Shown here: positions 564 through 20,435 of the stretch, piece by piece
How positions within the stretch are numbered: position 1 is the stretch's first letter
How the letters are laid out: each line of letters starts with the position of its first letter
IMG/VR virus record: IMGVR_UViG_3300008108_000011
Location: 124,001 to 188,000 of that record
Direction: 5' to 3' (one strand)
Source: a virus
DNA: 64,000 bases
Translations under genes and position numbers: made by a program
The notes under the pieces: generated by a model
Told to the model about the DNA's origin: nothing
Databases searched by the model: none
Seen by the model: only the letters and a program-made list of their open reading frames with translations

Positions 564-1070
564 ATGGCAACTACTATAAAAACCTTTAATTCGGAAGGTG
601 GGTTTGGTGTAAATCAAGTCACACTAGTTACAGATAAATTAGATATTCAGAATGTCAATACATTCAATTTAAAAAATTCTAATTATACTGATGCCTCACG
701 AACAGATTATATTTTAAGGGGATTAAATACATCTGTTCTAACTTTAGATGGAACTTTTCCAATAACGTTAGCATCAAACACTATTAACTTTATTACTGGA
801 TATATTGTTGCAGTTAATCCAACTGGAGTTGGTCATTATTCAGTAAAGATTGAATCTGCAGTAACATGTAATTCGTCGGGAGATGTTCAAGTTTTATCCG
901 AAATTTTTACAACAGTAAAAGATAGCGTACCTACTGGTCAGACTTGGACAGTTGCTAGTTACGATTCTGGCACAGCAAATCAATTTAGTTACACTACAAC
1001 AAGAGGCGGAACAACCGATACTATTAAATGGATTGCAAACACCCAAGTAGTATCAGTTTCTTGGTCATAA
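564..1070 (+). CDS. Hypothetical virion protein, beta-rich
   Basis: A 168-residue protein that starts 6 nt after the preceding stop. It is rich in Thr, Ser, Asn and Val, has no signal peptide or membrane segment, and is probably all beta. No family motif is recognised. Its place directly before the giant fibre-like gene, with the same composition, suggests a small structural or fibre-associated protein. The function is unknown. Confidence 0.6.
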   Translation: MATTIKTFNSEGGFGVNQVTLVTDKLDIQNVNTFNLKNSNYTDASRTDYILRGLNTSVLTLDGTFPITLASNTINFITGYIVAVNPTGVGHYSVKIESAVTCNSSGDVQVLSEIFTTVKDSVPTGQTWTVASYDSGTANQFSYTTTRGGTTDTIKWIANTQVVSVSWS

Positions 1071-1073
1071 TAA

Positions 1074-1080
1074 CTAAATA
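1074..1080 (+). promoter_or_regulatory. Late-promoter-like CTAAATA box
   Basis: CTAAATA lies in the 51-nt gap before the giant fibre gene, 41 nt upstream of its ATG. It resembles the TAAATA core of T4-type late promoters. The distance is longer than for the other boxes in this window, so the call is weak. Confidence 0.3.
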
Positions 1081-1121
1081 ATACAGAAGAAAAAACAGAA
1101 CTCTAGAGGCATTACGAGAAA

Positions 1122-4100: not shown

Positions 4101-7100
4101 TCTGAAGCACTTGGATATGCTAAGGCACTATATCCTTCTCTTGGTTTAACAGCAGACCAAGAAAGAAAGTGTAAGAGAGATATTCGCTACGTTCTTGCTG
4201 GTCTAAGAAGAGACTTGATTCTAGGCGGAAATGCTGGTATTGTTACTGCTGCCGAATCATATTTTACAGGAACTGAACTTACTGGTATCCCAACAGGAGA
4301 GTTGGCAGCAACTCGTTACGCATTCACTAAAGTAAAAGAGCTAGCACAACTAGCAATGCGTAACTGGAAAACAGGAACGAATGGAACTGGAGCAACATAC
4401 ACTCCGACTTACGAAACATCCATTTCTCTGTTCATTGACAACACTTTAATTGTTGACCCTGCTTCATCTAAGTGTGCCAATATCGTCACAGCAATTGACA
4501 CTGAAATGACATTGCTTGATGGTATTCTTGCTGGAACTACCGTTGCTGGAACTACTACTAAAACATATGGCACGCTTTATTCACCAACTATTACATATCC
4601 AGATGGTGTTCTTTATGATGCAGACAATAACTATATTACTCCAAGAGGAGTGTGGGATGATCTGCCAGCAATTGAAGCATCGCCATATATTCAAAACGCT
4701 TCTGTTATTTCGTTCTTAGGGGGTGGCGGTTGTGAAATCGATGGAGATAAGGTAACTCAACCAAACTCACCTTTCCCAGGTCTAGAACTTAATGGTGCAG
4801 CATCATATCCAAACCAAGGTAAATCCATGGTTGCTGCTCAGTTCACCATCGTTTCATTTGGTGGAACAGGATATAGGGTAGTCAACGATGGTTACTGTCA
4901 GTTGGTTTCTGTGTTCGTTCTATTCTGTGCTGATGGTGTTTATGCTGATAGTGGTGGTTATGCTTCTGTTACCAACGCTGCTACCAACTTTGGTATCTAT
5001 GCTCTAAGAGCTCGTGGATATAGAAAAGATCCATACACATTTGATATTGGAACTATTACTAATATCACCACATCTGTTACTGGTAAAACAGAAATTTCCG
5101 TCAGTGGTTTGGGTAGAAGACCATTTGAACATTATGTTGTAAAGATTGATGGATATAGAAACACAAATACCAACATAGAATATTTCATTGATTCGGTAAG
5201 AAACGTAACTGTTGGTCCACCTTTCAGTGCTACTATTGTCTTAAACGATGGCGCAGACTTCACCAAACTTTCTACTGGTGTTCCTGTTGGAATTTCTAAC
5301 TCAGAATTTGTAGGTAAGACTATTAAGTTACATAGACCTTCTATTGTTAACTCATCTGGTCACACTTGGGAATTTGCTGGATCTGGAACAAACTACAATG
5401 CTCTACCAGAAAATGGTGGTATCAAAATTGAAGCATACGAACAAGTATCTGAATACTATGGTCGTGTTTATACATCAGGAACCGACGAACTTGGTGACTT
5501 CAAGGTAGGTTACTTCGCACGTATTGAAAACAGAACTGGTGCAATTACCTTTACTGGAACAGTTACCATCTCGGAAGTTGAATTCCTCAAACTGAAGGGC
5601 GGTGACGTTGTTGTTACTGGATTCGATGCTTCTAATACTTTAGGTGGTGCTTTTACTACTGACTCTAAACTACCGACTCAAAAGGCAGTTAAGGATTATA
5701 TCTCAAATAATCTTGGCCCATACATCAAAGGAGCACTTGCTGGTGACATTGCCATTCAAGCAGATACATCAGTATCTTACATTCTTAATAATGATTTAAC
5801 TAGCTTGTATCTTGGATTCGCAGTAGATACCGCTTTAGTATTCAACACAGGAAATATCTTTACTGGTTCTGGATCTGGTGGTCAAATTCAAGCAACAGAA
5901 TACAGAGAAGGTGTAGTTTGGAAGATTAACATCACGAATCCTGGATCTGGATACACAGTTCCACCCAATATCGTCATTTCTGGTGGAAATCCTCAAGGTG
6001 GTGCGGTATCAGCAACTGCTACTTGCACCATTGCTAATGGTCAAGTTGTTTCTGTAACCATCACAGAAAATAACGGTTATATTGGTGGTAAAGGATACAC
6101 CACGCAACCTTCAGTCGTATTCACTGGTCCAGGTGGTGCTGGTGTTACTGCTACTGCTTCTGCTCTCATTGAAAACAGGTTGTATGGTGATATCGTCAAC
6201 AACATCAAGATTGTTGATACCGATACAGTAACATCTAATAATTCACCAACAGGCACAGTAGTTGATATTTCTCGTGTTGTTAATACTTCATCAAAGATTA
6301 ATGGTAACTGGGTATCTCTATCTTCTAACCAGATTTCTGCAGATGCCATTACTTCTGGTATTATCGCTACTACTCGTCTGGCACAAAACTCAACGGAAGC
6401 AAACTCTTTTACATTCCTAAGAGGAGATCAATCTTATGCTCCTGTTCTTCAATCACTCAAAGGAACAGAGACAAGATACTTTGCTAAGTTGACAAATGCT
6501 GTTTCATCTGGTTCGAGCACATTTGTGTTTGAAACAAACGCAAACATTCTCAAGGGGCATGGTATTGTTAATGACGTTAACGGCATTCCACTAGGAACAT
6601 TAGTTAACTCTGTAATTACTGCTGCTGGATTCACTACAGTTCAGTTAAACAACCCAGTAACTCAAAATATTTCCTCTGGAACAGTAATTCAGTTTACTCG
6701 CCCAGCATCTCCACTTATTATTGATACTTCTTACACCATTGGAAACTTTGTAGATAGTATTGTTGTTGCAAATGGGGGGAGTGGATTTACGAATGGAACG
6801 TATTATGATGTTTCTTTAAGTGGTGGAACTGGAACTGGATTAAAAGCAAATATTACTGTTGCTGGTAATGCTGTAACAACTGTGGCGGTAACAAGTGGTG
6901 GAGTTAATTACACTGGTGATTTTAGTGTTACTTCTGCTCCTTCTGTGATTGGTTCTGGTTCTGGATTAGTTCTTCTGGCTAAAACCGCTACAACCAACAA
7001 AAACTATGCTAATGCTGCTATTGATGTTAAGAGAGTTGATGATTTAACTATTTCTTCTGATCCATATGGTTCAGTTGGTGTAGCTAGATTCCAAAAGTCA

Positions 7101-9278
7101 CAGTTCACTTTAAACGCTGCTGGCAATGGATCAGTAACTCTCAAGACTGGTGCAGATAGCGGATTGGATGCAGACTTACTTGATGGTGCCCAGGGTGCTT
7201 ACTATCTAAATGCAAGCAACTTAAATTCAGGAACATTATCTGTTGACCGTCTTGCTGGAACATATAATATTTCTATCTCTGGTCAGTCAGGTAATACCTT
7301 ACGTCTGATTACTTCTACAAACAACCCAACTTCATCCCCTTCCCCCAACTCATTTGCCGAAGGTATTATTGCTGACACGAGAAATAATATATCAGATAGC
7401 TTAGATGATGGTGGAACTAAACATCTAGTTCTTACACTCAGAAATGGTTCTTCGGGATTTGACGCTACTTATGGTGGAGTAAGACAACTTGCTTTTACCG
7501 ACAATAATAATATGTGGCTCCGTGGTTCTGGAACGGGAGTTACTACATTTGGTTCTTGGGCAAAAGTGTGGACAGATCTTAATGATGGTCCTGGAACGGG
7601 ATTGGATGCTGATAAACTCGATAACCGTCAAGGTTCATTCTACCAAAATGCTTATAACTTAAACTCTGGCATTATCAGCGATAACCGTTTACCATCTTAC
7701 CAGACACAAAAGAGTTTTAATAGTGGAGTAAAAGTTCTTACTACAACTAATAATCCATATTATGATATTTACGTCACTGGTTTCGTATTAACTGCATCGC
7801 CATTCCTTGCTGGTCAGACTGTTAACCTCTATGATGTTAATTCACAGGGAACTGGAACGATTCTGATCACTAACGTCGCCACATATAACGATGCTGACGA
7901 CGCACTAGATTACAGCATCATCAGTGGTGTTCTAACAACTGGAACATTCACTGGCGCTCAAACGATCGGAACTGCTTCCAATAGAGTTGCATTCCAAGAT
8001 TATACTCTCAGAAATCAGGGAACATTCGAAACTGCTTCACTTGAGAGTTTAACTGGAACTGCTCTGCTCAAGCTTGGTAGAAAGGATGGCACTGCATCAT
8101 CCCCTGCTATCTATTTTAGCAGCAGCTCTTCAGCAGCATCCAACTACAACGTTGCTCTGGTTGCTTCTGGTGGTAGCAACACAGATGGTAGCGGTAACCT
8201 CAACATCGTTGCTGGTTCTGTTGATGCAGTTACAATCAATAACAATAAGATTTGGAACGCTGGTAACCTAACTCCAGCAACTAACAATGTTGCAAATACC
8301 GTTGTTCTCCGTGATGCTTCTGGTAACTTTGCCGCTGGCACAATCACTGCTAGTGTCACTGGTGCTGCTTCTCTCAACGTATTGAAGGCAGGCGATACAA
8401 TGACAGGTCAGTTGAAGATTGCCTTCAACAGTGGTCTTGGGGTTAGTGAAACAGGTGGGTCTGGAGCAAGGTTGACTATTACATCTGCTGGAACTGGTGC
8501 TATCATTTATCAAAATGATAACTCCGCAATTATTTTTCAAACTGATACTGCAGCTGAACAAGGCAGATTTAGACAAACTGCTGCGGGCGGCGGTTTCCAA
8601 ACCAAATTACTATCTGTAAATAACAACACATCTGATGCGAGTGTTACTGGTGGATTGGGCGCTGATATTGATGCTCCATGGATCAGAATAGGCGATGCAA
8701 CTACAGATAGAACCTATACTAATGGTCAGGGTATCAAATTCCATGATAATGCTGTTCAACATTATTCTATTGGTCAACTTGGCGGCAAATTCTTAATTGC
8801 TCAAACTGGTTCAAGTGGAAATTCATTATTCCCAAGCACAACTTCGACAGTTGGTATCTATATGGATTCCAACTCAAGAGTTGGTATTAATATTGCTCAA
8901 AGCAATACATTAACTTATCAACTACAAGTTAATGGTTCCTTCGCTGCCACTTCCAAGTCATTCCGTATTCCCCACCCAACCAAAGAGAACCATGACCTCG
9001 TTTATGGTTCGTTGGAAGGACCAGAGCACGGCGTATATGTTCGTGGTAAGTCATCTGGTGTTATTGAGTTACCTGATTACTGGGTTGCTCTTGTCGATGA
9101 GAACACCATCACCGTTCAACTCACTCCAATCGGCAATCATATGTCATGGGTTGAGAAGATTGAAGATAACAAGATCCTTATTGGTGGTGGTGAGGCATTC
9201 TACTTCGTTCAGGCGATGCGTAAGGATATTGAGAAGTTAGAGGTTGAAGTTGAGTTGCCTGTTGAGGAGGAAGAGTGA
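1122..9278 (+). CDS. Giant tail-fibre-like structural protein (2718 aa)
   Basis: At 2718 residues this is the largest protein in the window. Visible parts in order are: GSGY/PSV repeat units near residues 65-130; a pectate-lyase-like right-handed beta-helix stretch near 290-400; two related helical units (KCRRDI near 850, KCKRDI near 1015); more GxGY repeats near 1610-1670; and fibre repeats of the LDxDLLDG type near 2015 and 2160. The C-terminus (about 2605-2718) contains the SLEGPEHGVYVRG motif seen at the ends of cyanophage fibre proteins, and the last residues are acidic. It probably forms an elongated trimeric fibre or whisker on the virion for host recognition. No catalytic dyad was identified. 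It overlaps the next gene by 4 nt. Confidence 0.8.
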   Translation: MSLEFNADKQIIKSTNPQLIGSDDLTIRAGSGSDEKEVFRVQLDDTTKLPRIGINRTGQKIEKILIDQGFNGSGYTTQPSVIIGPPDLTNGIQAQASAIISAGSVVAIVVDNVGSGYLSAPSVSILGGNGNGAAATAYLDTVDYELDVNGAIRTSTSIISDTARILNLDIDNFVTPDAKFRAPSLKTYANNTGILWAPSTSISINEVWYYGNNIYQALNTGLSGSTPPTHIDGTQTNGTVSFKHIGYRVSSPLLKGYNQDMSYPRSITPPFGDDSDKVATTEYVLNLATNDVGGRVYVSAEIGNDSNNGRSAAAPVRTIKRACQIASQTKGVKETVVVSGGEYVEDNPISIPPDCSVVGDSLRIVIVRPNNPNKHMFKFADKNYISGLTFRDKIDSNGDPIATWKYACVFDDKQRIYYDPASGGDFKRDFPIGHQIFGPAKIRVTFQTNTGGTAIAENEYVTGVNTGAVGVVTARTFSSGTVSGTIDIKVLSGSFQTGETFTYPGDGARSWQANTTYTLNTIIYNGNNVYSVTTAGTSASTSPTHTTGAESNGTATLTWIRNVYNLIAIQVESIRAEGEVVEHVTDTTTTLPITRVDGSLQADPTVGGIVLYTNPLVGRTNFHNFKENQEIEISGLPTSNPDLSSLNGKQRVFKIIRDADGRSRRIVLYKQLAAFSDVNYIPSNASVKSANNYITLSLLNSPNKFPLPSFVLRRYQDACNLIRNNIDFIKDETYLQIQDEFSPNFSISSIQTTTGTGADAGYVIFRITTTGNHGFYLNDTVSIFKNGLNNNINGTFTVSNKVSNTVFEVKWLGVIGTLGLTSGTIYTTSSTPALSASAYVQRAFTIPNEAKCRRDIGHIVNAIIMDLEYGGNYNVIEAAKTYRNGTQIGYVSNEIAETVRSVEIARNLCILAMRRWRTGNGQIADPLYTPVYSNVARYYDTSVVQDTSNPACNDVANAITTLAYTFTDTLSNNADGRNLDAAIQIARNTDFIASEALGYAKALYPSLGLTADQERKCKRDIRYVLAGLRRDLILGGNAGIVTAAESYFTGTELTGIPTGELAATRYAFTKVKELAQLAMRNWKTGTNGTGATYTPTYETSISLFIDNTLIVDPASSKCANIVTAIDTEMTLLDGILAGTTVAGTTTKTYGTLYSPTITYPDGVLYDADNNYITPRGVWDDLPAIEASPYIQNASVISFLGGGGCEIDGDKVTQPNSPFPGLELNGAASYPNQGKSMVAAQFTIVSFGGTGYRVVNDGYCQLVSVFVLFCADGVYADSGGYASVTNAATNFGIYALRARGYRKDPYTFDIGTITNITTSVTGKTEISVSGLGRRPFEHYVVKIDGYRNTNTNIEYFIDSVRNVTVGPPFSATIVLNDGADFTKLSTGVPVGISNSEFVGKTIKLHRPSIVNSSGHTWEFAGSGTNYNALPENGGIKIEAYEQVSEYYGRVYTSGTDELGDFKVGYFARIENRTGAITFTGTVTISEVEFLKLKGGDVVVTGFDASNTLGGAFTTDSKLPTQKAVKDYISNNLGPYIKGALAGDIAIQADTSVSYILNNDLTSLYLGFAVDTALVFNTGNIFTGSGSGGQIQATEYREGVVWKINITNPGSGYTVPPNIVISGGNPQGGAVSATATCTIANGQVVSVTITENNGYIGGKGYTTQPSVVFTGPGGAGVTATASALIENRLYGDIVNNIKIVDTDTVTSNNSPTGTVVDISRVVNTSSKINGNWVSLSSNQISADAITSGIIATTRLAQNSTEANSFTFLRGDQSYAPVLQSLKGTETRYFAKLTNAVSSGSSTFVFETNANILKGHGIVNDVNGIPLGTLVNSVITAAGFTTVQLNNPVTQNISSGTVIQFTRPASPLIIDTSYTIGNFVDSIVVANGGSGFTNGTYYDVSLSGGTGTGLKANITVAGNAVTTVAVTSGGVNYTGDFSVTSAPSVIGSGSGLVLLAKTATTNKNYANAAIDVKRVDDLTISSDPYGSVGVARFQKSQFTLNAAGNGSVTLKTGADSGLDADLLDGAQGAYYLNASNLNSGTLSVDRLAGTYNISISGQSGNTLRLITSTNNPTSSPSPNSFAEGIIADTRNNISDSLDDGGTKHLVLTLRNGSSGFDATYGGVRQLAFTDNNNMWLRGSGTGVTTFGSWAKVWTDLNDGPGTGLDADKLDNRQGSFYQNAYNLNSGIISDNRLPSYQTQKSFNSGVKVLTTTNNPYYDIYVTGFVLTASPFLAGQTVNLYDVNSQGTGTILITNVATYNDADDALDYSIISGVLTTGTFTGAQTIGTASNRVAFQDYTLRNQGTFETASLESLTGTALLKLGRKDGTASSPAIYFSSSSSAASNYNVALVASGGSNTDGSGNLNIVAGSVDAVTINNNKIWNAGNLTPATNNVANTVVLRDASGNFAAGTITASVTGAASLNVLKAGDTMTGQLKIAFNSGLGVSETGGSGARLTITSAGTGAIIYQNDNSAIIFQTDTAAEQGRFRQTAAGGGFQTKLLSVNNNTSDASVTGGLGADIDAPWIRIGDATTDRTYTNGQGIKFHDNAVQHYSIGQLGGKFLIAQTGSSGNSLFPSTTSTVGIYMDSNSRVGINIAQSNTLTYQLQVNGSFAATSKSFRIPHPTKENHDLVYGSLEGPEHGVYVRGKSSGVIELPDYWVALVDENTITVQLTPIGNHMSWVEKIEDNKILIGGGEAFYFVQAMRKDIEKLEVEVELPVEEEE

Positions 9279-9949
9279 TGGCGATTGGATATGGGAATGT
9301 ATTGCCAGGTTTAGATAATATTGTTCTTTGTGTTGATGCTGGAAACCCCAAAATATATGTTGCTGGTAATACAACATACACTTTAAATAATGGATTGCAA
9401 CCTCCATCAAACGGATATTTTACTTTTGATGGATCTGATGATAGTATTAGTGTTCAAACTGTATATTTAAACACTCCCTACACAGGAAAAACCATAATTG
9501 TTGCAGCCTGGATGGATTCTGATGTTGTTTTTACAACAAGTTATTATAGAGCTATGATTGGTGGTGTTGGTGATAGGAATGCAAATTTTTACATTAGAAC
9601 TAGAGGACCAAATCCAAATGATTATGATTTACATTTCAGCACGGGACCATCTGGAGCATATTATGGAACTTTGAGTTCTGGAATCACTTTAAATACCCAA
9701 CAGTGGTATATTTTTGCAGTTACGCAATCTTCACTAGATGGTGCTCATAATTATTATATGAATGGATCTCTGATATCAACCAATCCTTCCACTTGGTATT
9801 CTTATGGTCAAAACTCCACAGAATACTTGGGTAGAGCTGATAATTTCTGGAAGGGAAGAATTGGTTATTGGTATGTTTATAATAAATCTTTTACCGCAGA
9901 AGAAATAAAAAGACATTTTGATTTAACCAAAGGGAGGTTCGGAATCTAA
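9275..9949 (+). CDS. LamG/concanavalin-like lectin-fold protein 1
   Basis: A 224-residue protein overlapping the fibre gene by 4 nt (ATGA) and the next gene by 1 nt. The N-terminus (GLDNIVLCVDAGNPK) and the C-terminus (YVYNKSFTAEEIKRHF...RFGI) frame a beta-sandwich typical of LamG-like jelly-roll domains. It is the first of three tandem paralogues. These phage LamG proteins are thought to decorate fibres and bind glycans. That role is inferred; the fold call rests on the characteristic end motifs and length. Confidence 0.65.
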   Translation: MMAIGYGNVLPGLDNIVLCVDAGNPKIYVAGNTTYTLNNGLQPPSNGYFTFDGSDDSISVQTVYLNTPYTGKTIIVAAWMDSDVVFTTSYYRAMIGGVGDRNANFYIRTRGPNPNDYDLHFSTGPSGAYYGTLSSGITLNTQQWYIFAVTQSSLDGAHNYYMNGSLISTNPSTWYSYGQNSTEYLGRADNFWKGRIGYWYVYNKSFTAEEIKRHFDLTKGRFGI

Positions 9950-10719: not shown

Positions 10720-11447
10720 TGGCAGTTTACGCAGGTCCTGATTTAATTGAAGACGGATTAATTTTTTGCATAGATCCAGGAAATTCTAAGAGTTGGAATG
10801 GTTCTTCTTTATTGGATATAGCAGGTAATAGAACATTATCATTAGTAAATACTTCTGGAACTGCAATATCATATTCGCCAAGCAACGGAGGAATATTAAA
10901 ATTTAATAATGGGTCAAATTATATTCAGTGCCCTTCTGACAGCGATTTGAAATTAACATCTTCATTTTCTATGTTTATTTGTTATAGATTAAATCAAGCA
11001 TTTGGCGATCAAAATTTAGCAAATGGTGATACTAAATACAGAACTTTATTCGGTAAACCAAATTATAATGAATATGGAATTATTATGGAATGGTATACTG
11101 GAAATCCATTATTATTTGATTTTATTGGAACTGATAATCAAAGAAATCCACTTGGTTTATCTTATACGTTTGGATATTCAACATGGAGTATTGTTGCTTA
11201 TACTTACAGTGTTTCTAGAGGATTTCAAAAAAGCTATATGTATAAATCAGATGGAAGTACTTCATTTGTAACAAGAAATACTACTTCTACAGTAAGAACA
11301 ACAGATGATCCTGTAAGAATAGGAAGTGCTGGGTCTGGATATCAGATAGATTTAGATATTGGACCAGCAATGATTTACAACAAAGCATTATCAGATGCAG
11401 AAGTTCAACAAAATTTTGAAAGACTTCGCGGAAGATTTGTAATATAA
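10719..11447 (+). CDS. LamG/concanavalin-like lectin-fold protein 3
   Basis: A 242-residue third member of the tandem set, overlapping the previous stop by 1 nt. The N-terminal GLIFCIDPGNSKSWNG and C-terminal AMIYNKALSDAEVQQNF...RFVI are classical ends of phage LamG-like domains. Its TAA stop is part of a TATAAATA late-promoter-like box serving the next gene. It probably encodes a fibre-associated glycan-binding protein; the substrate is unknown. Confidence 0.65.
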   Translation: MAVYAGPDLIEDGLIFCIDPGNSKSWNGSSLLDIAGNRTLSLVNTSGTAISYSPSNGGILKFNNGSNYIQCPSDSDLKLTSSFSMFICYRLNQAFGDQNLANGDTKYRTLFGKPNYNEYGIIMEWYTGNPLLFDFIGTDNQRNPLGLSYTFGYSTWSIVAYTYSVSRGFQKSYMYKSDGSTSFVTRNTTSTVRTTDDPVRIGSAGSGYQIDLDIGPAMIYNKALSDAEVQQNFERLRGRFVI

Positions 11448-11450
11448 ATA
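11443..11450 (+). promoter_or_regulatory. Late-promoter box TATAAATA
   Basis: A perfect TATAAATA, the T4-type late promoter box, ends 22 nt before the next ATG. The stop codon of the upstream LamG gene (11445-11447) is embedded in the box. Confidence 0.6.
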
Positions 11451-11472: not shown

Positions 11473-13560
11473 ATGGCAAATTCTGATAAGGATATCCTTA
11501 TAACGCCGAATAAAGGCACTACATCATTACCAGAAGTTAGTTTTGTCGGTCAAGTAAACTCACCGATAAGACTTCGTGTGCTTGATGATAATACATTATC
11601 CTTTGAAGGTTCTGCTGGTCAGTTATTTTCGATCAACAATAACTTAACCACTGGAACAATCTTTGCAGTTTCTGATGTTTCTGGTGTTCCTGGATTATCC
11701 TATGATGCTGGTGGAGCATTAAAATTAACTCCTTTCAATGGAGTTACGATGGTTGGTGGAACAACCACAGCAACTTCACCAAAACTAGTAACAGTTCAAA
11801 GCAACGCTGGAACAAGATATTCATTCCAAATTCAAGTCAACTCTGGTATTACAGATGGGCAATATGATGGTATAGGATTTACTCAGGGATCTGGTGGAGC
11901 AACTCCTTTAGGTGGTATTCGTTGTGAATATAGAAGCAGTGGATCTCCAGATTTTGGTTGGTATACCAGAAGCGGTGGTTCCACAGAAAGTATAAAATTA
12001 AAACTATGGAACTCTGGAAATCTTTCTATTGGAACTGCAGATCAAACAGAATATACTCGTTTGAATGTTCTCGGTGGAAATGGTATTACTATTAGAGCTG
12101 ATAGTTCATCTACCAGTAATAGATACATTTATTTCAGACAAGCGCCAAACGACTATGGTTTCCGTATCACGCAAGATGATGCTTCCGTTGGTATGCTTTT
12201 CTTCCGAGCAGTTGATGCTGGAAATGACACTAACCCATTAATTACTTTAGACAGACCAACACTAAGAGTTGGCATTGGAAATTTTAGCACATCTGCTAGA
12301 CCAGGATATACTCTTGATGTTAATGGCAATATCAACTTCTCTGGTAACTTATACCAAGCAGGTTCAATCTTCAAAACTCTCCCAACCCAAGATGCAACAA
12401 CTGATGGATCCGTTCTTAGAACTCGTTGGAATCCATCTGCATCTACATACGAAGCATATTGGACACATGACCTTGATGCAAACTATCGTCTAGAGAACCC
12501 AGATCAGTGGGCATTCCGTTATATCATTAATAGGGGTTATACAGTTGCTGGATATCAAAATGCTAACCCATGGAGAAACGGTAACAGAACTTCACATCCA
12601 TCAGACGTAACAATTTCCATTGGGGATGTTATTGATTATTCTGCTGCTTATATTGGCGGTTCTCATAATGGAGTAAATCTCTTTGTTTACAACTGTGCTA
12701 ACTCTTGGTTGCCAGCTTCTGCTTCCACATGTTCCATGAGCATGATTACAGAGACAAATAGAGGTCTCAACACATCTTGGAATGACACTAGAGCACGTAG
12801 TTATTCTGGTGCTTGGCTCGACTTTATGGGTAACCAGTGGAGAACAAATGCTGGTAGAAATAGAGCATATATCAGTTCTGGCAATGGCAACACATCCAGA
12901 CATGATCTGATCACAGAAGCAATGATTGCTGAAATTGGCGGCACAATTTCATACGTTTCTCACGCGGAAGGTGAATTTTTTGCTTGGCTATCGCAAGGTC
13001 AGAACCGATTTGAATTCTCAACAGAAACATTTACAGCATGGTCCAGTTATTCACCTGCTCCTGGTTGCGATGGAATTAACAAGCACCAAGCAACACGTAT
13101 TGGTTTCTTCTATTGTTCGGAAGGTGGTAACACAGATAGAAACGTAACTAAGAGAAGAGATACTGATGCCGTTATTTTAAGATCTGGGATTACTAAACCA
13201 GAAACTGGTGGTGAGGAGAACCTACATACTGGTATGAACAAAGGTTATTGTATTTCAAACTATAATTATGCTCAGAACAATAACGCATGGATTTATCAAT
13301 ATTATAATGATGTAATTCGTTTTGCTGATGGCACTCTAACGTATCGTAAAGGAATTCCTGGTGCTTCATCAGGAACTGGTCAAGAAGGTGGAGATATGCA
13401 AGGTGCTGGTATTCCTCCAAGGTCTTATATGACATATGCAGGTGGTCAGCAAGTTGCTCCAGGAACAATGGTTTATGGTGGATCCACTGGTGCTACATTA
13501 CAAGGTGGTGCCCCATTAACAGATGGTTCTGGCGCAACAGGTGGAATTGGAACATATTAA
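11473..13560 (+). CDS. Tail-fibre-like structural protein
   Basis: A 695-residue protein preceded by AGGA and a late-promoter box. The N-terminal third resembles phage fibre shafts (repeated TLDVNGNINFSGNLYQ-type units near residue 280). The C-terminal half has many aromatic and Gly residues and a run ending in Gly/Ala/Thr-rich sequence, as in receptor-binding tips. There is no signal peptide. It probably belongs to the tail-fibre or neck-whisker system. The gene just downstream has features of a fibre-assembly helper, which supports this. Confidence 0.65.
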   Translation: MANSDKDILITPNKGTTSLPEVSFVGQVNSPIRLRVLDDNTLSFEGSAGQLFSINNNLTTGTIFAVSDVSGVPGLSYDAGGALKLTPFNGVTMVGGTTTATSPKLVTVQSNAGTRYSFQIQVNSGITDGQYDGIGFTQGSGGATPLGGIRCEYRSSGSPDFGWYTRSGGSTESIKLKLWNSGNLSIGTADQTEYTRLNVLGGNGITIRADSSSTSNRYIYFRQAPNDYGFRITQDDASVGMLFFRAVDAGNDTNPLITLDRPTLRVGIGNFSTSARPGYTLDVNGNINFSGNLYQAGSIFKTLPTQDATTDGSVLRTRWNPSASTYEAYWTHDLDANYRLENPDQWAFRYIINRGYTVAGYQNANPWRNGNRTSHPSDVTISIGDVIDYSAAYIGGSHNGVNLFVYNCANSWLPASASTCSMSMITETNRGLNTSWNDTRARSYSGAWLDFMGNQWRTNAGRNRAYISSGNGNTSRHDLITEAMIAEIGGTISYVSHAEGEFFAWLSQGQNRFEFSTETFTAWSSYSPAPGCDGINKHQATRIGFFYCSEGGNTDRNVTKRRDTDAVILRSGITKPETGGEENLHTGMNKGYCISNYNYAQNNNAWIYQYYNDVIRFADGTLTYRKGIPGASSGTGQEGGDMQGAGIPPRSYMTYAGGQQVAPGTMVYGGSTGATLQGGAPLTDGSGATGGIGTY

Positions 13561-13573
13561 TAGGAATTAAAAA

Positions 13574-14365
13574 ATGGAAAGAGTTTATTACTTAATAAAA
13601 GATACTTCACTATTCTCAATCATATATGATCTCAGAGTTTTGAGATCTTTGTTGAATTGGTATGCTGTTTCTATGCCAGCATCCGAAGAATTGATGTTCA
13701 AAGAAATTGTGAAGGGAAAATATTACCCGTTAGATCCTATTACTGGATTTAAGGGGTTTAAAACTTTTGCTGATATTAGAGGTCAAATTAAAATAGTTCA
13801 GCAAGAAGCAAATGGAGAAGTTGTTGCATTTCAATCTGAAGGTGTTTTCAATTCCGTAGAAGATGATCCAAAAGCTGGTGTTAATAAAATTGTTCTTGAT
13901 GTTGATGACGAGAGAAGAAATGCTGTTATAAACGCTATGAGGTTGGTAGCAAAAGCAGTTATAGAAGAAGAGTTTGATAAAAAATTTATGGAATTAGATA
14001 CTTCTTCTAATATGGAATCTTTGTCATTTGAACTACAATATGAAGAAGCATTAGCATATCAAAGTAATAAAGATACGGAAGTTCCTTTGTTAACTGCATT
14101 AGCTGGTGCTAGAGAAATATCTGTTGAAGAAATGGCAGAAAAAATTATTAGTGGGCGTCTAGTATATAAGCAAAAAATTACAGATCTTCTAACAAGAATG
14201 ACTTGGATAAAAGCACAATTCAAAAATGCCTCCACAATTAGAGATCTAAATAGATTATACGAAGACTATTTCAGCATTGCAATGCCAGAATCACAAGCTA
14301 TTGAAGAAGGTAGAGTTGTTGATTTTAAGCGTGTTGTTCCTGTAGGAATTGGTCTAAGATTTTAA
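13574..14365 (+). CDS. Hypothetical protein, possible tail-fibre assembly helper
   Basis: A 263-residue protein preceded by AGGA. The N-terminal half is not recognised. Residues about 165-240 form a helical segment (LLTALAGAREISVEEMAEKI, then DLLTRMTWIKAQFKNAS and a Leu-rich helix) that resembles the C-terminal helical region of phage tail-fibre assembly chaperones of the DUF4376 type. Its position right after a fibre-like gene fits. The match is by eye only, so a virion protein is equally possible. Confidence 0.4.
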   Translation: MERVYYLIKDTSLFSIIYDLRVLRSLLNWYAVSMPASEELMFKEIVKGKYYPLDPITGFKGFKTFADIRGQIKIVQQEANGEVVAFQSEGVFNSVEDDPKAGVNKIVLDVDDERRNAVINAMRLVAKAVIEEEFDKKFMELDTSSNMESLSFELQYEEALAYQSNKDTEVPLLTALAGAREISVEEMAEKIISGRLVYKQKITDLLTRMTWIKAQFKNASTIRDLNRLYEDYFSIAMPESQAIEEGRVVDFKRVVPVGIGLRF

Positions 14366-14383: not shown

Positions 14384-15127
14384 ATGTTAAGTAAAGAGAC
14401 TATTCTGCAAAATGCAGTGCAGTTTGCTACTGGTCAAACTGATTATCAAAATGATAATTTTGTGATGAATTCTCACGTTACAAAGTATCGTCAAATTCGC
14501 CAAGCACTTTTAGAAATTGAAAATAGATATCACGGCATCAGAAAAATTAAACTTGATGTTCGTAGAGACGAAATTAAAATTAAAGCACTTCAACGAGATT
14601 TAGAGAAGTGTGAGGATGATCTAGAAGCAGAATTAATTCGTATTGATATCGAAGATTTAGAATCTGATAATGATATCCGCAGAAGAAAATTAACTAGACA
14701 AGAACAAGAAATAGATGTTTTTGTCAAAAGAGTTCAAGAAAATGTAGAAAGCGAAGAAGATATTCAAAGATACTTTGATCAAGATCCAGAGGAAGAAAGA
14801 AAGTATTGGATTGCTCGCATGGGCAAACAAGCTGCTATGGATATCCTTTCTTTTGGGAGAATTAGCACAGGCAACTTAGATTCTATTGCCATGCTTCCAG
14901 AAGAAGAACAACTTCAAATTCTTTCAATTGGTTTTCAGTATTCCAATCTTCTTGGTGGTCAGTTAGCAAAAATTGAAGGTAGAACTAGAGAGTATACACA
15001 ACAACTATTGTCAGATTCAGCAAATCTAAGATTACCAACATTTGAAGGTATCGAAGATAATATGGAATTGAAGATGATTAATTCACTTAAGGAGATTGTT
15101 GAGCAGAAAAAATTAAAAGGAAATTAA
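14384..15127 (+). CDS. Hypothetical coiled-coil protein
   Basis: A 247-residue protein with a long charged coiled coil at about residues 45-125 (alternating Glu/Lys/Arg with Leu and Ile heptads). A globular helical C-terminal part follows (KYWIARMGKQAAMDILSFGR near 145). There is no membrane segment or signal peptide. It lies between the fibre block and the dioxygenase cassette, starting 18 nt after the previous stop. The function is unknown; such genes near T4-like structural loci are often virion components. Confidence 0.5.
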   Translation: MLSKETILQNAVQFATGQTDYQNDNFVMNSHVTKYRQIRQALLEIENRYHGIRKIKLDVRRDEIKIKALQRDLEKCEDDLEAELIRIDIEDLESDNDIRRRKLTRQEQEIDVFVKRVQENVESEEDIQRYFDQDPEEERKYWIARMGKQAAMDILSFGRISTGNLDSIAMLPEEEQLQILSIGFQYSNLLGGQLAKIEGRTREYTQQLLSDSANLRLPTFEGIEDNMELKMINSLKEIVEQKKLKGN

Positions 15128-15128
15128 T

Positions 15129-15878
15129 ATGAATAATAATTTCTGGGATTATAGTGTAATCGAAAACAAAATTGAATTAAATAGTGTTCATAGTATTTTT
15201 TCTATTCCTCTTTTCGAAAGTACTATTATGGTTTCGAATATTGATGAAATAATGTCTGACTTAACAAACAAATATAACTCATCTGATGGCGAAGAACTTT
15301 TGTCTTCAAATGGTTCTGTTCTTTCTCCTCTAGAAGCAGAAAAGCAGAATAATGTATCAGTCAGAGATTCAATTTCATATTATAGTGAAGATACTTTACA
15401 CACTCAATCACTTTATAAAGAATTAGTAACTTCAATTGAATCTATAACAAAAAATATTTTTGATTTGTATGAATATGATTCTATTACCCCACAAGTAGTA
15501 ACAATGTGGGGGAATGTTCTCGGAAACAAGGGTTATATACATGCTCACTCACATAGCAATTCTATGTTTTCTGGTGTATGGTATCCAGAAGATCCACCAG
15601 AAACAGAAGAAGGTTCCTTATCAAATTATATCAAATTTATTGATCCAACAAGAATTAAATTCTTTTTCATGCCACAGATAAAGAAAAAAAATCCATTGAA
15701 TTCTGGAGAAATTTTTATAAAGCCTAGAAAAGGAATGTGTTTGATTTTTCCATCTTGGTTAGAGCATGATACTATTCCAAATGAAAATCCATATTTAAAA
15801 AGATATAGTATTTCATTTAACATTTTCCCCAAAGGAACTTTGGGATATCCAAATTCATTAAATCGCCTTACGTTATGA
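15129..15878 (+). CDS. Putative 2OG-Fe(II) oxygenase (2OG-FeII_Oxy_5/TIGR02466-like)
   Basis: A 249-residue protein, ATG 1 nt after the previous stop. The cupin-like core carries the family pattern WGNV (127-130), HAHSHSNSMFSGVWY (from 138), FPSWLEH (207-213) and RYSISFN (225-231). His138 or His140 and His213 are candidate iron ligands, and Arg225 is a candidate 2-oxoglutarate contact. Family members are Fe(II)/2-oxoglutarate-dependent hydroxylases of unknown substrate, common in cyanophages. It overlaps the next, related gene by 4 nt. The oxygenase fold is likely; activity and substrate are inferred. Confidence 0.75.
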   Translation: MNNNFWDYSVIENKIELNSVHSIFSIPLFESTIMVSNIDEIMSDLTNKYNSSDGEELLSSNGSVLSPLEAEKQNNVSVRDSISYYSEDTLHTQSLYKELVTSIESITKNIFDLYEYDSITPQVVTMWGNVLGNKGYIHAHSHSNSMFSGVWYPEDPPETEEGSLSNYIKFIDPTRIKFFFMPQIKKKNPLNSGEIFIKPRKGMCLIFPSWLEHDTIPNENPYLKRYSISFNIFPKGTLGYPNSLNRLTL

Positions 15879-16525
15879 GCACTCTTGAAATATTCCCACA
15901 AGCTATTGGGAAGTATTCTTTTGATTATGAAAGTAAAATTAAAATTAAAGATCTTTGTTTTGAGATAATCAAAGAGAACTCTTTTTCAAAAAACAAAGAT
16001 AGCAATAATTTATATCATTACTGCAATACTAACAAAGAAAATTTATTAAATTTAGAGCAGTTTAAATGGTTTGAAGAAAAGATCTCAAGATTTGCTGCCG
16101 ACTATATTGAAAATATTTTAGGGTATGAGTTAAAAGATGGTGTGGTAATTACAGACTGCTGGATGAATTTATGTCAAAGTAATGGTGATCAGTTTCTACA
16201 CAACCACGGTAATTCATTTATTTCGGGAACATACTATGTAAATTTCAACCCAGATGTTCATGGTAAATTAAAATTCCAAAATCAAAATATGATGTCAGGA
16301 ATGAACTCTGCTCCTTATCTAGAATTAACAATTAAAAAGAATACAAAGTATAACTCTGGAGGAGCAATAATGAATTATAATGAAGGTGATGTATTGCTAT
16401 GGCAATCACATTTAATTCATGGATATAGTGGTAATAATTCAGACAATCGCATTAGCATCTCATTTAATATTATGCCCAAACATTTTTATAATAACTCATA
16501 TTCATTTAAGGTAGTTAGAGAATGA
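15875..16525 (+). CDS. Putative 2OG-Fe(II) oxygenase, second copy
   Basis: A 216-residue protein overlapping both neighbours by 4 nt. It shows the same family pattern as the preceding gene: HNHGNSFISGTYY (His109, His111), WQSHLIHGYSG (His179, His182) and NRISISFNIMP (Arg192). This predicts a double-stranded beta-helix Fe(II)/2-oxoglutarate enzyme. The two genes are divergent paralogues rather than a recent duplication, since only the active-site motifs are shared. The substrate is unknown. Confidence 0.75.
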   Translation: MSTLEIFPQAIGKYSFDYESKIKIKDLCFEIIKENSFSKNKDSNNLYHYCNTNKENLLNLEQFKWFEEKISRFAADYIENILGYELKDGVVITDCWMNLCQSNGDQFLHNHGNSFISGTYYVNFNPDVHGKLKFQNQNMMSGMNSAPYLELTIKKNTKYNSGGAIMNYNEGDVLLWQSHLIHGYSGNNSDNRISISFNIMPKHFYNNSYSFKVVRE

Positions 16526-17190
16526 TATTAATAGAAAATGATTATCTCGAAAGAGTTTGCCTGATTAATAAAGATGCAAAAATTGAAGAAGTTGTATACG
16601 ATGGAGTTAAATTTAAGTGTATTAGAAACTTTCTGAAAAACCCAGAAGAATACATCGAGTTAATTCAGCAATTTCCAGCAACTAGAGATCACACATATTC
16701 TCCTGGTTTCAGACAAGACATCCCACCATGGGCGGCTAAATTTATTACTCTCTATATTCAAGAACATGTAGGTCAATGGAAACCTGCTAGAGTTTCATGT
16801 AACATTTACAGTGGTAATATGTTGATGAAAGAACATTCAAATTTACCACATTCTGATCCGTTCTATGGTATTTGGAACTTATGGTTAAACAAAAAATGTT
16901 TAGGTGGAACTGCTTTTTGGGCACATAAAAATAAGTTGCATGTTAGTGAGTTGTCAGAAGATGAATACAATCATCTTTTTGAAAAACCTCTCATGGGATC
17001 TGGATATGAAAAGTGGAAAAACTTCAAAGGAGATGAAGACTGGAAGATGACATGTATTGCTCCTATGGAGTATAACACGCTTCTATTCTATAATGGAGGA
17101 TTTTTCCATTCTCCATGGATTCAAGAAAGCTGGTATTTGGATGAGTATAGATACAGTATGGTTGGCATGGGAGATTTTGAAAATGTTTAG
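16522..17190 (+). CDS. Dioxygenase-like protein (DUF6445-like)
   Basis: A 222-residue protein overlapping the preceding gene by 4 nt and the next by 8 nt. It has LPHSDPFYGIWNLWLN with an H-x-D pair (His110, Asp112), GGTAFWAHKN, and a distal FFHSPW (His196) followed by EYRYSM (Arg210). This order of H-x-D, H and R is that of 2OG-Fe(II) oxygenases, and the sequence resembles DUF6445-type proteins. It probably hydroxylates a small molecule or protein. The fold call is moderate and the substrate unknown. Confidence 0.55.
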   Translation: MILIENDYLERVCLINKDAKIEEVVYDGVKFKCIRNFLKNPEEYIELIQQFPATRDHTYSPGFRQDIPPWAAKFITLYIQEHVGQWKPARVSCNIYSGNMLMKEHSNLPHSDPFYGIWNLWLNKKCLGGTAFWAHKNKLHVSELSEDEYNHLFEKPLMGSGYEKWKNFKGDEDWKMTCIAPMEYNTLLFYNGGFFHSPWIQESWYLDEYRYSMVGMGDFENV

Positions 17191-18868
17191 TTTACCAATT
17201 AATCCAAAGATCGATGAGAACTTTGCTAATAATATTCTCATTCCTTTTCTAAAAAAATACAAGGAATACATCTTTGACTTATATTTCACTTGTCGTATGC
17301 CTCCCTTTATGCAGGATGCCATGGGTGATGTATTTGAAGATGACTTGAGGCAGACAACCTTCAATGCTCTGTATATTTCAAAGCAAACTGGTATTCCTCT
17401 GTCTGCTACGTTCAACAATCCGTATGTAAGACCAACGCAAGAAAATTTGGATTTGTTTATCAACAACTTCAAATACATCTACGAAGCTGGTGTTAGAACA
17501 GTAACTCTTCCCCATACTTCATGGATGCTTACAGGTCAAATTCAAAAAGAGATGCCAGAACTTTATGTCAAGAATACTATTCTACATGAAGTATCGAAGG
17601 CAAATGATATTGTCTCACTTGCTAAAGCAGGTTTTCATTACATCAATCTCGATAGAGATTTAATGAGAGATCAAGACCAACTCAGGCGTCTCAAGGAAGC
17701 AAAAGATTATTGTGCTTCCATTGGAAAACCAGTCAAGTTCTCCATGCTTGCTAACGAGGGATGTTGGGGTGGATGCCCTATCATGCCTGAGCATTACCAT
17801 TATAATAACACAAGAGAAAATCACGAACCACCATACTTCGGTAATATTATCAGTCGTGTATCGTGTTCTAAGTGGGAGCAGCAAGATAGCTCAGCAGTTT
17901 TGAAGTCAGCAAATTTACCACCTTGGAAAAAGGATTGGGAAGAGATGTTTGATCTTGGTATTGATGTTTTCAAACTACATGGCAGAGAAAGTGTAATGCG
18001 TTTGAAGGAGAGTATGGATATTATTCATCGCTGGGCGAACGATGAAGAACTTCTATTCCCAGAACTCAATACTTATATCGAAAATAAGAGTTTGAAGGAA
18101 AGACCTATCGATATCTGGCGCGAGAAGATCAAAACTTGTAAGTTTGATTGTTGGGATTGTAACTACTGCGAGGCAGTAATTGACGCCCATCACAAAAAGC
18201 AAGATAGAGTTCTACACCCACTCGTTCAACTTACCCTCGATGCTATTGACAAATCAGCAACTGGCGATACAAAATTCAATCCACAAGGATTCAATATCGA
18301 AGGATTATCTTCTGATAGAGTTCGTCATTTCCTCAACCACCTCTGCTCAGATTCTAAGAATACCTACTTAGAGATTGGTTGCTATACTGGTAGCACATAT
18401 TTCGCTGCTATCATGGGAAATGATATCATGTCGTATGCTGTGGATAATTTTGCTGCCCCCATTGCTCCTGCCAGAGATGATATTGAATGGAAGGGGTGTG
18501 AGAATCCAAAAGCAGAATTGGCAAGAAACAACATCTTGTTTGGCAGTTTAAAATCTGTTATAATAGACACAGATGCTAGGCAACTCAATGCTTCGCATTT
18601 TTCCAAAAAACCCAACATCATATTCTATGATGGAGAGCACGATGAACAGCAAATAGATTGTTTGAATACTTTATTACCAAATTTACAAAATACTTTTATA
18701 TTGGTAGTAGATGATGCAAACTTTGACGGAGTTGTTCGGGGAACCGAAAAATTTGTAGGTATAAATAATCTACGAATACTATTTGAAAGGCAAATAATTA
18801 CGCCTCAAATAGAAGACGCCACAAGTTGGTGGAATGGATTACACATTTTAGTTCTATCAAAACCCTGA
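17183..18868 (+). CDS. U32-like Cys-rich protein fused to a class I methyltransferase
   Basis: The ATG at 17183 gives 561 residues. An in-frame ATG at 17057 would lie deep inside the previous gene, so the 8-nt overlap is preferred. The N-terminal half looks like a TIM-barrel U32-type protein with NEGCWGGCP (Cys194, Cys198), Cys228 and a cluster CKFDCWDCNYC (Cys319, 323, 326, 329), a plausible Fe-S site. The C-terminal part (about 375-561) has LEIGCYTGST (396-405) and an acidic FYDGEHDE at 481-488, as in SAM-dependent methyltransferases of the Methyltransf_24 type. A two-domain modification enzyme is inferred. The substrate is unknown. Confidence 0.6.
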   Translation: MFSLPINPKIDENFANNILIPFLKKYKEYIFDLYFTCRMPPFMQDAMGDVFEDDLRQTTFNALYISKQTGIPLSATFNNPYVRPTQENLDLFINNFKYIYEAGVRTVTLPHTSWMLTGQIQKEMPELYVKNTILHEVSKANDIVSLAKAGFHYINLDRDLMRDQDQLRRLKEAKDYCASIGKPVKFSMLANEGCWGGCPIMPEHYHYNNTRENHEPPYFGNIISRVSCSKWEQQDSSAVLKSANLPPWKKDWEEMFDLGIDVFKLHGRESVMRLKESMDIIHRWANDEELLFPELNTYIENKSLKERPIDIWREKIKTCKFDCWDCNYCEAVIDAHHKKQDRVLHPLVQLTLDAIDKSATGDTKFNPQGFNIEGLSSDRVRHFLNHLCSDSKNTYLEIGCYTGSTYFAAIMGNDIMSYAVDNFAAPIAPARDDIEWKGCENPKAELARNNILFGSLKSVIIDTDARQLNASHFSKKPNIIFYDGEHDEQQIDCLNTLLPNLQNTFILVVDDANFDGVVRGTEKFVGINNLRILFERQIITPQIEDATSWWNGLHILVLSKP

Positions 18869-18875
18869 GGATACT

Positions 18876-19070
18876 ATGGATACAACACAACTTAAAGAAA
18901 ACTTCACCACTCAACTTACTACTGTTGATGGTCAAATTGCGAAACTAGAAGAAGAACTAGCAAAAGCAAAAGAATATCGCCTCAAGCTACAAGGTGGATT
19001 AGAGACTCTAGACCTTCTTAATCCCCCCACAGAAGAAGAAACAGCAACGGAAGAAGTAGCAGCAGAATGA
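18876..19070 (+). CDS. Small coiled-coil protein
   Basis: A 64-residue acidic protein with a GAGG ribosome-binding site. Residues about 15-45 form a Glu/Lys/Leu coiled coil (DGQIAKLEEELAKAKEYRLK). The C-terminus is Glu/Thr-rich and probably disordered. It sits between the fusion methyltransferase and a dioxygenase gene with short gaps. No family is recognised and the function is unknown. Confidence 0.55.
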   Translation: MDTTQLKENFTTQLTTVDGQIAKLEEELAKAKEYRLKLQGGLETLDLLNPPTEEETATEEVAAE

Positions 19071-19074
19071 TTTC

Positions 19075-19569
19075 ATGACTTATGAAATCATTGATGATTA
19101 TTTGCCACCAGTTGTTCATCAAAATTTATACAATTTTTTGATGAACAACATGTTTCCGTGGCAATTTGTTAATGCAGTAAATAGCGAAGATGAAGATAAA
19201 AATTTTGTAAATAATTTTTATTTTATCCATCTTTTCTATGGAATGCACAAACCAACCAGCGAACATTTTGAATTGGTAGTTCCTTTACTAAACAAATTAA
19301 ATCCAAAAGCTTTAATGAGAATAAAGGGTAATCTTTATACTAGAACAGAAAATTTGGTTCATCACTCTCAACATTCCGACTATAAATTTAAACATAAAGC
19401 AGCAATATATTATGTCAATGATAATGATGGTTACACCATTCTTCACGATGGAACCAAAATAGAAAGTGTTGCTAATAGAATGTTATTGTTCGATGCTTCA
19501 AGATTACACAATTCAACAAACTGCACCAACACAAAAGTTCGCTGCAATATAAACTTCAATTATTTTTAA
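19075..19569 (+). CDS. Putative 2OG-Fe(II) oxygenase (prolyl-4-hydroxylase-like)
   Basis: A 164-residue protein with HSD (His100, Asp102), YYVNDNDGYTILHDG (112-126), FDASRLHNS (His145) and VRCNINFNYF (Arg156). These give the full H-x-D...H...R set of Fe(II)/2-oxoglutarate dioxygenases and the layout of the small cyanophage members of the P4Hc group. It is the fourth oxygenase-like gene of this cassette. The next gene, gp13, starts a new transcription unit behind a terminator-like hairpin. The substrate is unknown. Confidence 0.75.
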   Translation: MTYEIIDDYLPPVVHQNLYNFLMNNMFPWQFVNAVNSEDEDKNFVNNFYFIHLFYGMHKPTSEHFELVVPLLNKLNPKALMRIKGNLYTRTENLVHHSQHSDYKFKHKAAIYYVNDNDGYTILHDGTKIESVANRMLLFDASRLHNSTNCTNTKVRCNINFNYF

Positions 19570-19577: not shown

Positions 19578-19610
19578 CCCTTCTTATAAATACATAAGAA
19601 GGGATTTTTT
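19578..19610 (+). terminator. Intrinsic terminator hairpin with late-promoter box in its loop
   Basis: A 9-bp perfect stem (CCCTTCTTA at 19578-19586 with TAAGAAGGG at 19595-19603) has an 8-nt loop and is followed by A and six T (19605-19610). The loop and inner stem contain the second TATAAATA. The hairpin can end transcripts of the dioxygenase cassette. Confidence 0.65.
19585..19592 (+). promoter_or_regulatory. Late-promoter box TATAAATA for gp13
   Basis: TATAAATA lies in the loop of the terminator-like hairpin, 30 nt before the gp13 ATG. This suits late transcription of the neck and tail genes by a gp55-type sigma factor. Confidence 0.6.
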
Positions 19611-19622
19611 ATAGGGCTTTAC

Positions 19623-20435
19623 ATGTCAGCATCAAAGCCAGCAACCAGAGAGGAGTTAAAGCAATACTGCCTCCGAGAGTTAGGCAAACCAGTTTTAGAA
19701 ATCAACGTAGCAGATCAACAACTAGAAGATCGCATTGATGAAGCTCTGCAGTTTTTCCAGGAGCGTCATTTTGACGGTATGGATAAAATGTATCTAAAAC
19801 ATACGTTAACTCAAACCGAAGTAGATAGATTTAAAGGAAATAATATCACACACAACACATCAGAAGGTGACGTGTGGACTGAACGAGGTAACTACTTAGA
19901 TTTACCAGATCATATTATTGGCGTAGAAAAAGTATTTGGTGTAACCTCTAGCAGCATTCGTGGAGATCTCTTTGGTATCGAATATCAAATCTTCCTTAAT
20001 GACCTATACGCTTTTGGTTCGATTGATATTCTAAACTACTACATGGTTAAGAGTTATATCGAAACACTCGATATGGTTCTGAATACAGGTGCTCTGATTC
20101 GCTTCAGATTTACCAAGAGAGATGGTCGTCTCTACATTGACTATGATCCTCAGATGCTAACTAAGGATAAGATTCTTATCATCGAGTGCTATAGAGCATT
20201 GGATCCCACAGACCTCACAAAGATTTGGAATGACTTCTGGTTAAAGAGATATACCACTGCACTATTCAAGCGTCAGTGGGGGCAAAATCTTATCAAGTTT
20301 AATAATGTTCAACTACCTGGCGGTGTCTCACTCAATGGTCGTCAGATTTATGAGGATGCAATCAGAGAGATTGAAGATATCGAATCTAAGATTATTTCTG
20401 ATTATGAACTACCACCACTAGATATGATTGGATAA
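19623..20435 (+). CDS. 13: Neck protein gp13
   Basis: A 270-residue protein (T4 gp13 has 309) with the typical start (TREELKQYCLRELGKPVLEI) and the DQQLEDRIDEALQFFQERH helix of cyanophage gp13. In T4, gp13 and gp14 form the neck that closes the filled head and joins the tail. It overlaps gp14 by 1 nt and is followed by gp15, as in other T4-like phages. Late expression is suggested by the TATAAATA box upstream. Confidence 0.9.
   Translation: MSASKPATREELKQYCLRELGKPVLEINVADQQLEDRIDEALQFFQERHFDGMDKMYLKHTLTQTEVDRFKGNNITHNTSEGDVWTERGNYLDLPDHIIGVEKVFGVTSSSIRGDLFGIEYQIFLNDLYAFGSIDILNYYMVKSYIETLDMVLNTGALIRFRFTKRDGRLYIDYDPQMLTKDKILIIECYRALDPTDLTKIWNDFWLKRYTTALFKRQWGQNLIKFNNVQLPGGVSLNGRQIYEDAIREIEDIESKIISDYELPPLDMIG

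Follow-up and report, generated by a model that had tools for sequence, protein, structure and literature searches.

The placement of one compact gene cassette in an environmental virus provokes a question: why would a phage line up several putative oxygenases between its tail-fiber genes and its neck genes? The gene content of the virus, a 192.7-kb record (IMGVR_UViG_3300008108_000011), is that of a cyanophage-type, T4-like myovirus. We analyzed a stretch of 64,000 nucleotides (nt) of this record (positions 124,001 to 188,000; G000:C1:124001-188000), hereafter termed the window, in which six tightly packed genes (A–F) occupy positions 15129–19569 of the + strand. A preliminary description of the window had proposed four genes for 2-oxoglutarate (2OG)-Fe(II)-oxygenase-like proteins (A, B, C, and F), a cysteine-rich fusion of U32-like and methyltransferase parts (D), and a short gene for a coiled-coil protein (E). 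Those coordinates, the four oxygenase genes, and their compact packing were borne out: A/B and B/C each overlap by 4 nt and C/D by 8 nt, and gaps of 7 and 4 nt separate D from E and E from F. The answer that we favor, tentatively and at a little less than an even chance, is that a fiber operon here includes a module for oxidative tailoring, namely this cassette. Its enzymes, whose activity and substrate we infer, would modify fiber proteins post-translationally.

We first consider what the oxygenase-like proteins are. A (15129–15878) and B (15875–16525) exceed the curated cut-offs of PF13759 and TIGR02466, and C (16522–17190; phrog_1644) exceeds that of DUF6445; F (19075–19569; phrog_274) falls under the PF13640 cut-off (19.5 vs. 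27 bits). Motif conservation was assessed in alignments with relatives taken from environmental contigs and isolates. The residues kept throughout are above all the metal ligands, namely H140/H142/H213 in A, H109/H111/H182 in B, H110/D112/H196 in C, and H100/D102/H145 in F. This HxH or HxD pair and the distal histidine are invariant in all four families, and the relatives differ down to 23–45% identity. The arginine of the 2OG-binding type, about 10 residues past the distal histidine, is invariant in A (R225), B (R192), and C (R210); the corresponding position 156 of F is arginine in 30 of 32 sequences and lysine in two. Because these residues are conserved in relatives, the motifs that had been noticed by eye exceed what chance would produce. 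The sequences thus support A, B, C, and F as four 2OG-type oxygenases with predicted catalytic function.

Structure prediction was informative for C. A model built from 14 sequences (predicted local distance difference test score, pLDDT, 83; predicted template modeling score, pTM, 0.80) was compared with the PDB using Foldseek, and every match with E < 0.001 was a 2OG-type enzyme, including OGFOD1, ABH2, NO66, PolD, LH3, and Tpa1. As modeled, C has a 2OG-oxygenase fold. The double-stranded beta-helix that the preliminary description had expected of these proteins is supported for C by its model and the Foldseek matches, and A and B lie above the cut-offs of their families; for F, the evidence of fold consists of the PF13640 match below its cut-off and a weak profile alignment with PHD2/EGLN1 across most of its length (E 0.6–1). 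The C profile aligned with the mimivirus procollagen lysyl hydroxylase (L230) at E 0.08; both alignments are taken as hints only. PHD2/EGLN1, OGFOD1, Tpa1, LH3, and L230 are protein hydroxylases with weak profile or fold similarity to C and F. The function that we propose for C and F would be analogous to theirs, although the sequence E-values are just 0.08–1. To our knowledge, no phage enzyme of this kind has been characterized.

Could the oxygenase-like proteins instead be structural parts of the virion that are no longer enzymes? Proteins of the C type are named “minor coat protein” in PHROGs and GenBank, and all of these genes are placed among structural genes. The label finds no support in the present analysis, and the catalytic ligands have stayed invariant despite the divergence described above. 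Mildly pointing the same way, the virion proteome text on phage S-SCSM1 (PMC9602691) names none of that phage’s 24 oxygenases, although 13 of the 45 virion proteins it gives as detected are function-unassigned (29 are structural). A purely structural role therefore seems very improbable to us.

The database label of F, “DNA endonuclease V” (T4 denV), was considered and rejected: no endonuclease family in Pfam or NCBIfam matches F up to E = 1, and the 2OG motif is present. The same label is attached through phrog_274 to hundreds of cyanophage proteins, where it is a misannotation of a 2OG-oxygenase-like family.

Protein D (17183–18868, + strand; its start codon is the ATG at 17183, within a longer open reading frame) belongs to T4-GC 354/phrog_1458. 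Members in isolates are 53–55% identical to it over the whole length and have the same neighbors, 351–353; the family has been known just as a hypothetical protein, and its two domains and seven conserved cysteines are described here. The D model (pLDDT 80, with cysteine loops below 50; pTM 0.53) has two domains, at approximately residues 1–345 and 375–561. In Foldseek, the N-terminal domain matched the U32 protein Mk0906 (5d88; E 2e-6, TM-score 0.70 by target length) and, with lower TM-scores, other TIM barrels (pyruvate kinases, MetF). The C-terminal domain matched class I O-methyltransferases, with TrmR (8k1f) among the best and the mycobacterial sugar methyltransferase MeT1 also present. 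Direct Pfam searches with D gave no match to PF01136 (U32); indirect support comes from a Chloroflexota protein (L117) that scores 55 bits against D and itself matches PF01136. Similarly, the C-terminal domain reaches 17.2 bits against PF13578 (Methyltransf_24; cut-off 26.3), and its closest cellular relative (L213) passes that model with 48.6 bits. PDB sequence searches with D returned noise only, and hhalign, run with shallow alignments on both sides, yielded no usable match between the D family and four Escherichia coli U32 proteins (probability 3.7%).

The conserved cysteines of D set it apart from the known U32 oxidases. Seven cysteines are invariant in all 22 aligned D proteins: C194-x3-C198 (C-x3-C-P), C228, and C319-x3-C323-x2-C326-x2-C329. 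In the methyltransferase domain, which has the Rossmann fold of its class, the ExGxxxG motif (E397-x-G399-x3-G403) and the acidic residues D421, D483, and D510-D511 are likewise invariant. The U32 oxidases (TrhP, RlhA, UbiU/UbiV) have in common with D a TIM-barrel fold like that of 5d88 and conserved cysteines, but their spacing is C-x6-C-x15-C-x3-C (PMC11574389); D lacks this motif and also the glutamate-cysteine motif that is essential in TrhP (PMC6599085). Because the spacing differs and the TrhP motif is missing, we term D U32-like and do not file it as a U32 oxidase. D is a divergent U32-like TIM barrel fused to a class I methyltransferase. The fusion and the cysteine richness that had been read from the sequence are therefore upheld, whereas the U32 domain is not a canonical one.

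This domain pair suggests an alternative substrate. In Bacillus subtilis, TrhP (U32) and TrmR (O-methyltransferase) act in sequence (PMC6599085) to make 5-methoxyuridine (mo5U) in tRNA, and the trhP-trmR operon pairs the same domain types that D has fused and phage-encoded; together with the TrmR match, this would favor RNA as the target of D. However, D lacks the TrhP-essential motif and has a different cysteine spacing, no RNA-binding domain was recognized in it, the stretches that we examined contain no tRNA genes, and it is fiber genes, not those of translation, with which D is inherited. We set this reading aside; of all the explanations weighed here, we consider it the least probable. 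A second alternative is that the enzymes alter host surface components or small lipids and sugars, for example to block superinfection or prepare lysis; D would then add hydroxyl and O-methyl groups to a lipid or sugar. The MeT1 match and the Methyltransf_24 relative fit this idea, yet neither the cassette nor its constant neighbors include a glycosyltransferase, transporter, or lipid gene, and we regard it as unlikely.

Which cellular proteins resemble D? A scan of genome contigs with D found two contigs only, both in metagenome-assembled genomes and both phage-like DNA. In 251 Chloroflexota genomes, the D profile found five genes of about 410 codons in four genomes (E 2e-24 to 4e-28). All five, from Dehalococcoidia (L201–L204, L206), carry the seven cysteines of D and are the closest cellular relatives of its N-terminal domain. 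They are stand-alone genes with no fiber context, whereas phage D is fused and has that context; two of the five loci resemble the domain pair of D in having an O-methyltransferase next door. These bacterial genes adjoin reductive-dehalogenase-like genes (PF13486 in L208, L209, and L212). In L210 and L211, the neighbor is homologous to those dehalogenases, that of L210 matching ferredoxin-type models only, and an O-methyltransferase gene lies between it and the U32-like gene, echoing the phage fusion. The seven-cysteine U32-like gene of Chloroflexota is an undescribed partner of rdhA genes (loci L208–L212). The first two Chloroflexota U32 relatives that were found (L116, L117) lie beside acyl-CoA ligases and gave no lead.

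The inheritance of D ties it to two genes on its 5′ side: 351 (11473–13560, + strand; 695 residues, fiber-like, T4-GC 351, phrog_1417, “sericin 1 precursor-like”), whose conserved part is the C-terminal domain (12379–13557), and 353 (14384–15127, + strand; 247 residues, coiled-coil-like, phrog_1409). A tblastn search of 50,697 phage records gave 123 with D, and searches with 353 and with the C-terminal domain of 351 gave the same total and organism breakdown (Synechococcus, 77; Cyanophage, 38; Prochlorococcus, 8), a comparison at the level of counts; many of the records are near-identical isolates. Whole 351 was found in 125. The preliminary description had held that a lack of synteny in related phages would speak against the cassette; synteny is what we found, since 351 and 353 are both present, in an unbroken block, in every one of the 46 environmental loci whose sequence extends 4.5 kb or more upstream of D. 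D, 353, and the 351 C-terminal domain are inherited together. This C-terminal domain has no Pfam match; motifs of the GY.GG type and others rich in W and N recur in it, giving the look of a repeat fold that could be a propeller.

The oxygenases behave differently. Around D, there are from none to seven different ones, and their number, family, and side of D all vary: Syn33 and P-SSM4 have a single oxygenase with 351-353-D, the A-B-C-D order recurs in L016, L018, L019, and others, and in eleven loci (L047, L054, and others) D is followed by a series of six or seven oxygenases, all different. The content of the intervals from 353 to D and from D to gp13 thus varies. Descriptively, since many loci are close relatives, 149 of 178 open reading frames in these intervals can be assigned to ten families in which an HxD or HxH is invariant, and nine of these families match a 2OG family by Pfam or PHROGs or by the fold of C. 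In four loci (L021, L022, L025, and L027), flavin adenine dinucleotide (FAD)-dependent tryptophan halogenases (PF04820) lie among the oxygenases of the 353-D interval, beside fiber genes; no halogenase was found in the present phage. D is thus the constant gene and the oxygenases are variable cargo, which departs from the single pathway with a fixed gene set that had been proposed. E (18876–19070, + strand; 64 residues, coiled-coil-like), also counted into the cassette at first, is probably unrelated to it: its family (T4-GC 357/phrog_580) is widespread in cyanophages and occurs in phages without D, such as S-SM1. The annotation of S-SM1 lacks T4-GC 351–354, yet oxygenase-type genes follow its fiber genes in a row.

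A second array strengthens the association with fibers. Outside the window (G000:C1:66000-78000, locus L191, positions 776–6261), the genome has, in order, a short-tail-fiber gene (phrog_4924, Collar domain), an oxygenase, a tail assembly chaperone, and two further oxygenases; this order is repeated in S-PM2, Syn1, S-CAM4, and ACG-2014e. Seven of the nine oxygenases of the genome, a count from family searches that may be low, lie in the two fiber operons (P ~1e-7, assuming independence and 230 genes, a value that would weaken if tandem oxygenases are duplicates). The other two (locus L192 of G000, 1747–2340 and 8651–9346) are not beside recognized fiber genes; the latter is about 2 kb behind a helicase gene. 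Also in L191 (9922–11435), two adjacent open reading frames resemble, by sequence, a carbamoyltransferase split in two with the domain order reversed.

The layout of the window is compatible with a fiber operon. On the 5′ side of the cassette is a fiber-type block: a gene for a 2718-residue fiber protein (1122–9278), three shorter genes, and then the homologues of T4-GC 351, 352 (13574–14365, + strand; 263 residues, function unassigned), and 353. The large fiber protein has a sub-threshold match to PF22252, the PNGase F-II N-terminal domain (21.2 vs. 27.6 bits). On the 3′ side are the neck genes gp13 (19623–20435, + strand), which forms the right border, and gp14. A-B-C-D follows 353 so closely that no gap is left to house a promoter of its own, and sigma-70-like promoter matches are at chance level. 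A T4-type late-promoter-like TATAAATA box is found at 11443–11450 (+ strand), 23 nt 5′ of the 351 start codon, and others lie 5′ of gp13; this signal is weak, since the window has seven such boxes where chance alone would give 4.5, not a significant enrichment. The boxes before 351 and gp13 fit a late operon, and the block may be co-transcribed. Where the cassette had been described as ending at a terminator, a hairpin with a T run is present (19578–19603, not assigned to a strand; it overlaps TATAAATA at 19585–19592), but terminator-like matches are not enriched in the region (eight found vs. 5.3 expected).

The main rival to fiber tailoring is that the fiber-neck interval is a cargo hotspot that gathers auxiliary metabolic genes; the oxygenases would then act on host metabolites or on 2OG/nitrogen signaling, and would have no link to fibers. 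Its strongest argument is the company that the oxygenases keep: the interval holds petE and gnd in S-ShM2, and annotated heme oxygenase (ho1) and phycocyanobilin:ferredoxin oxidoreductase (pcyA) genes in the Pelagibacter phage Mosig (L198). Published proposals point the same way, namely effects on the 2OG level and NtcA (PMC3037559) and reprogramming of host metabolism (PMC9602691). These genes weigh against our reading, as do phages whose 351-353-D block has no oxygenase next to it (in L061, L063, and L066, nothing lies between); the comparison of the 123 records by totals and the possible tandem duplication count on the same side. The hotspot idea accounts for the presence of oxygenases but not for the linkage of D with 351 and 353, and it leaves unexplained the interleaving with a short-tail-fiber chaperone and the arrays in which as many as seven distinct oxygenases follow one another. 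Mosig has the same arrangement, with oxygenases in the fiber-neck interval, and its host is a SAR11 heterotroph, not a cyanobacterium. On balance, we judge the hotspot explanation improbable, though it is the most serious of the rivals.

Fiber tailoring is preferred because 351-353-D is inherited together, because no promoter gap separates 353 from A-B-C-D, because the ligands are invariant and D and C have the folds described, because oxygenases are interleaved with a short-tail-fiber gene and its chaperone in this phage and four isolates, and because Mosig repeats the arrangement outside cyanobacterial hosts. We envisage that D and the changing 2OG-Fe(II) oxygenases would act on side chains of newly made fiber proteins during virion assembly. 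The first target may be the 351 C-terminal domain, with D as a dedicated 351 enzyme and 353 perhaps an assembly partner. The oxygenases would hydroxylate residues using O2, Fe(II), and 2OG; an Fe-S-dependent oxidation, which is probably hydroxylation, would fall to the U32-like domain of D, and methylation of the resulting product to its methyltransferase domain. Exchanging the oxygenase set could thereby alter the chemistry of the receptor-binding surface. Activity, cofactors, and purpose here are as conjectural as the substrate; the earlier suggestion that a virion component is modified remains plausible and has gained from the 351-353-D block and the short-tail-fiber array.

Oxygenases of this type are well known in cyanophages: they were described by Sullivan in 2010 (PMC3037559), 24 were counted in S-SCSM1 (PMC9602691) and nine in S-SZBM1 (PMC9146016), and the phage families of A, B, and F (phrog_81 and phrog_274) are diverse and often present in many copies per genome. 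The portions of these reports that concern them treat them as scattered metabolic or DNA-repair genes, and do not remark on arrays behind fiber genes or with tail chaperones. Besides the signaling and metabolic roles mentioned above, DNA repair has been discussed (PMC9146016); such roles could still apply to oxygenases elsewhere in these genomes. In the open-access literature, we found no paper on modification of phage fibers by such enzymes. T4-GC 354 was likewise known as a gene. Judged by the literature searched, the following are new: the identification of the two domains of D, the seven-cysteine clade, the co-inheritance of D with a fiber gene, the occurrence of oxygenase arrays in fiber operons, and the corrected label of phrog_274.

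Since 2010, the role of cyanophage oxygenases has been guessed to lie in host metabolism or DNA repair; the fiber context offers a concrete, testable alternative. A wider form of the proposal is more doubtful: that Kyanoviridae possess exchangeable fiber-operon cassettes, comprising a D dedicated to 351 and shuffled 2OG oxygenases, some with FAD halogenases, which would mark receptor-binding proteins with hydroxyl, methyl, or halogen groups and so diversify adsorption through chemistry in addition to sequence. If the fiber reading is right, D would add to the U32 fold a new branch marked by an unusual double cysteine set, and enzymatic side-chain chemistry would underlie how the fibers of abundant aquatic viruses work and which hosts these viruses infect.

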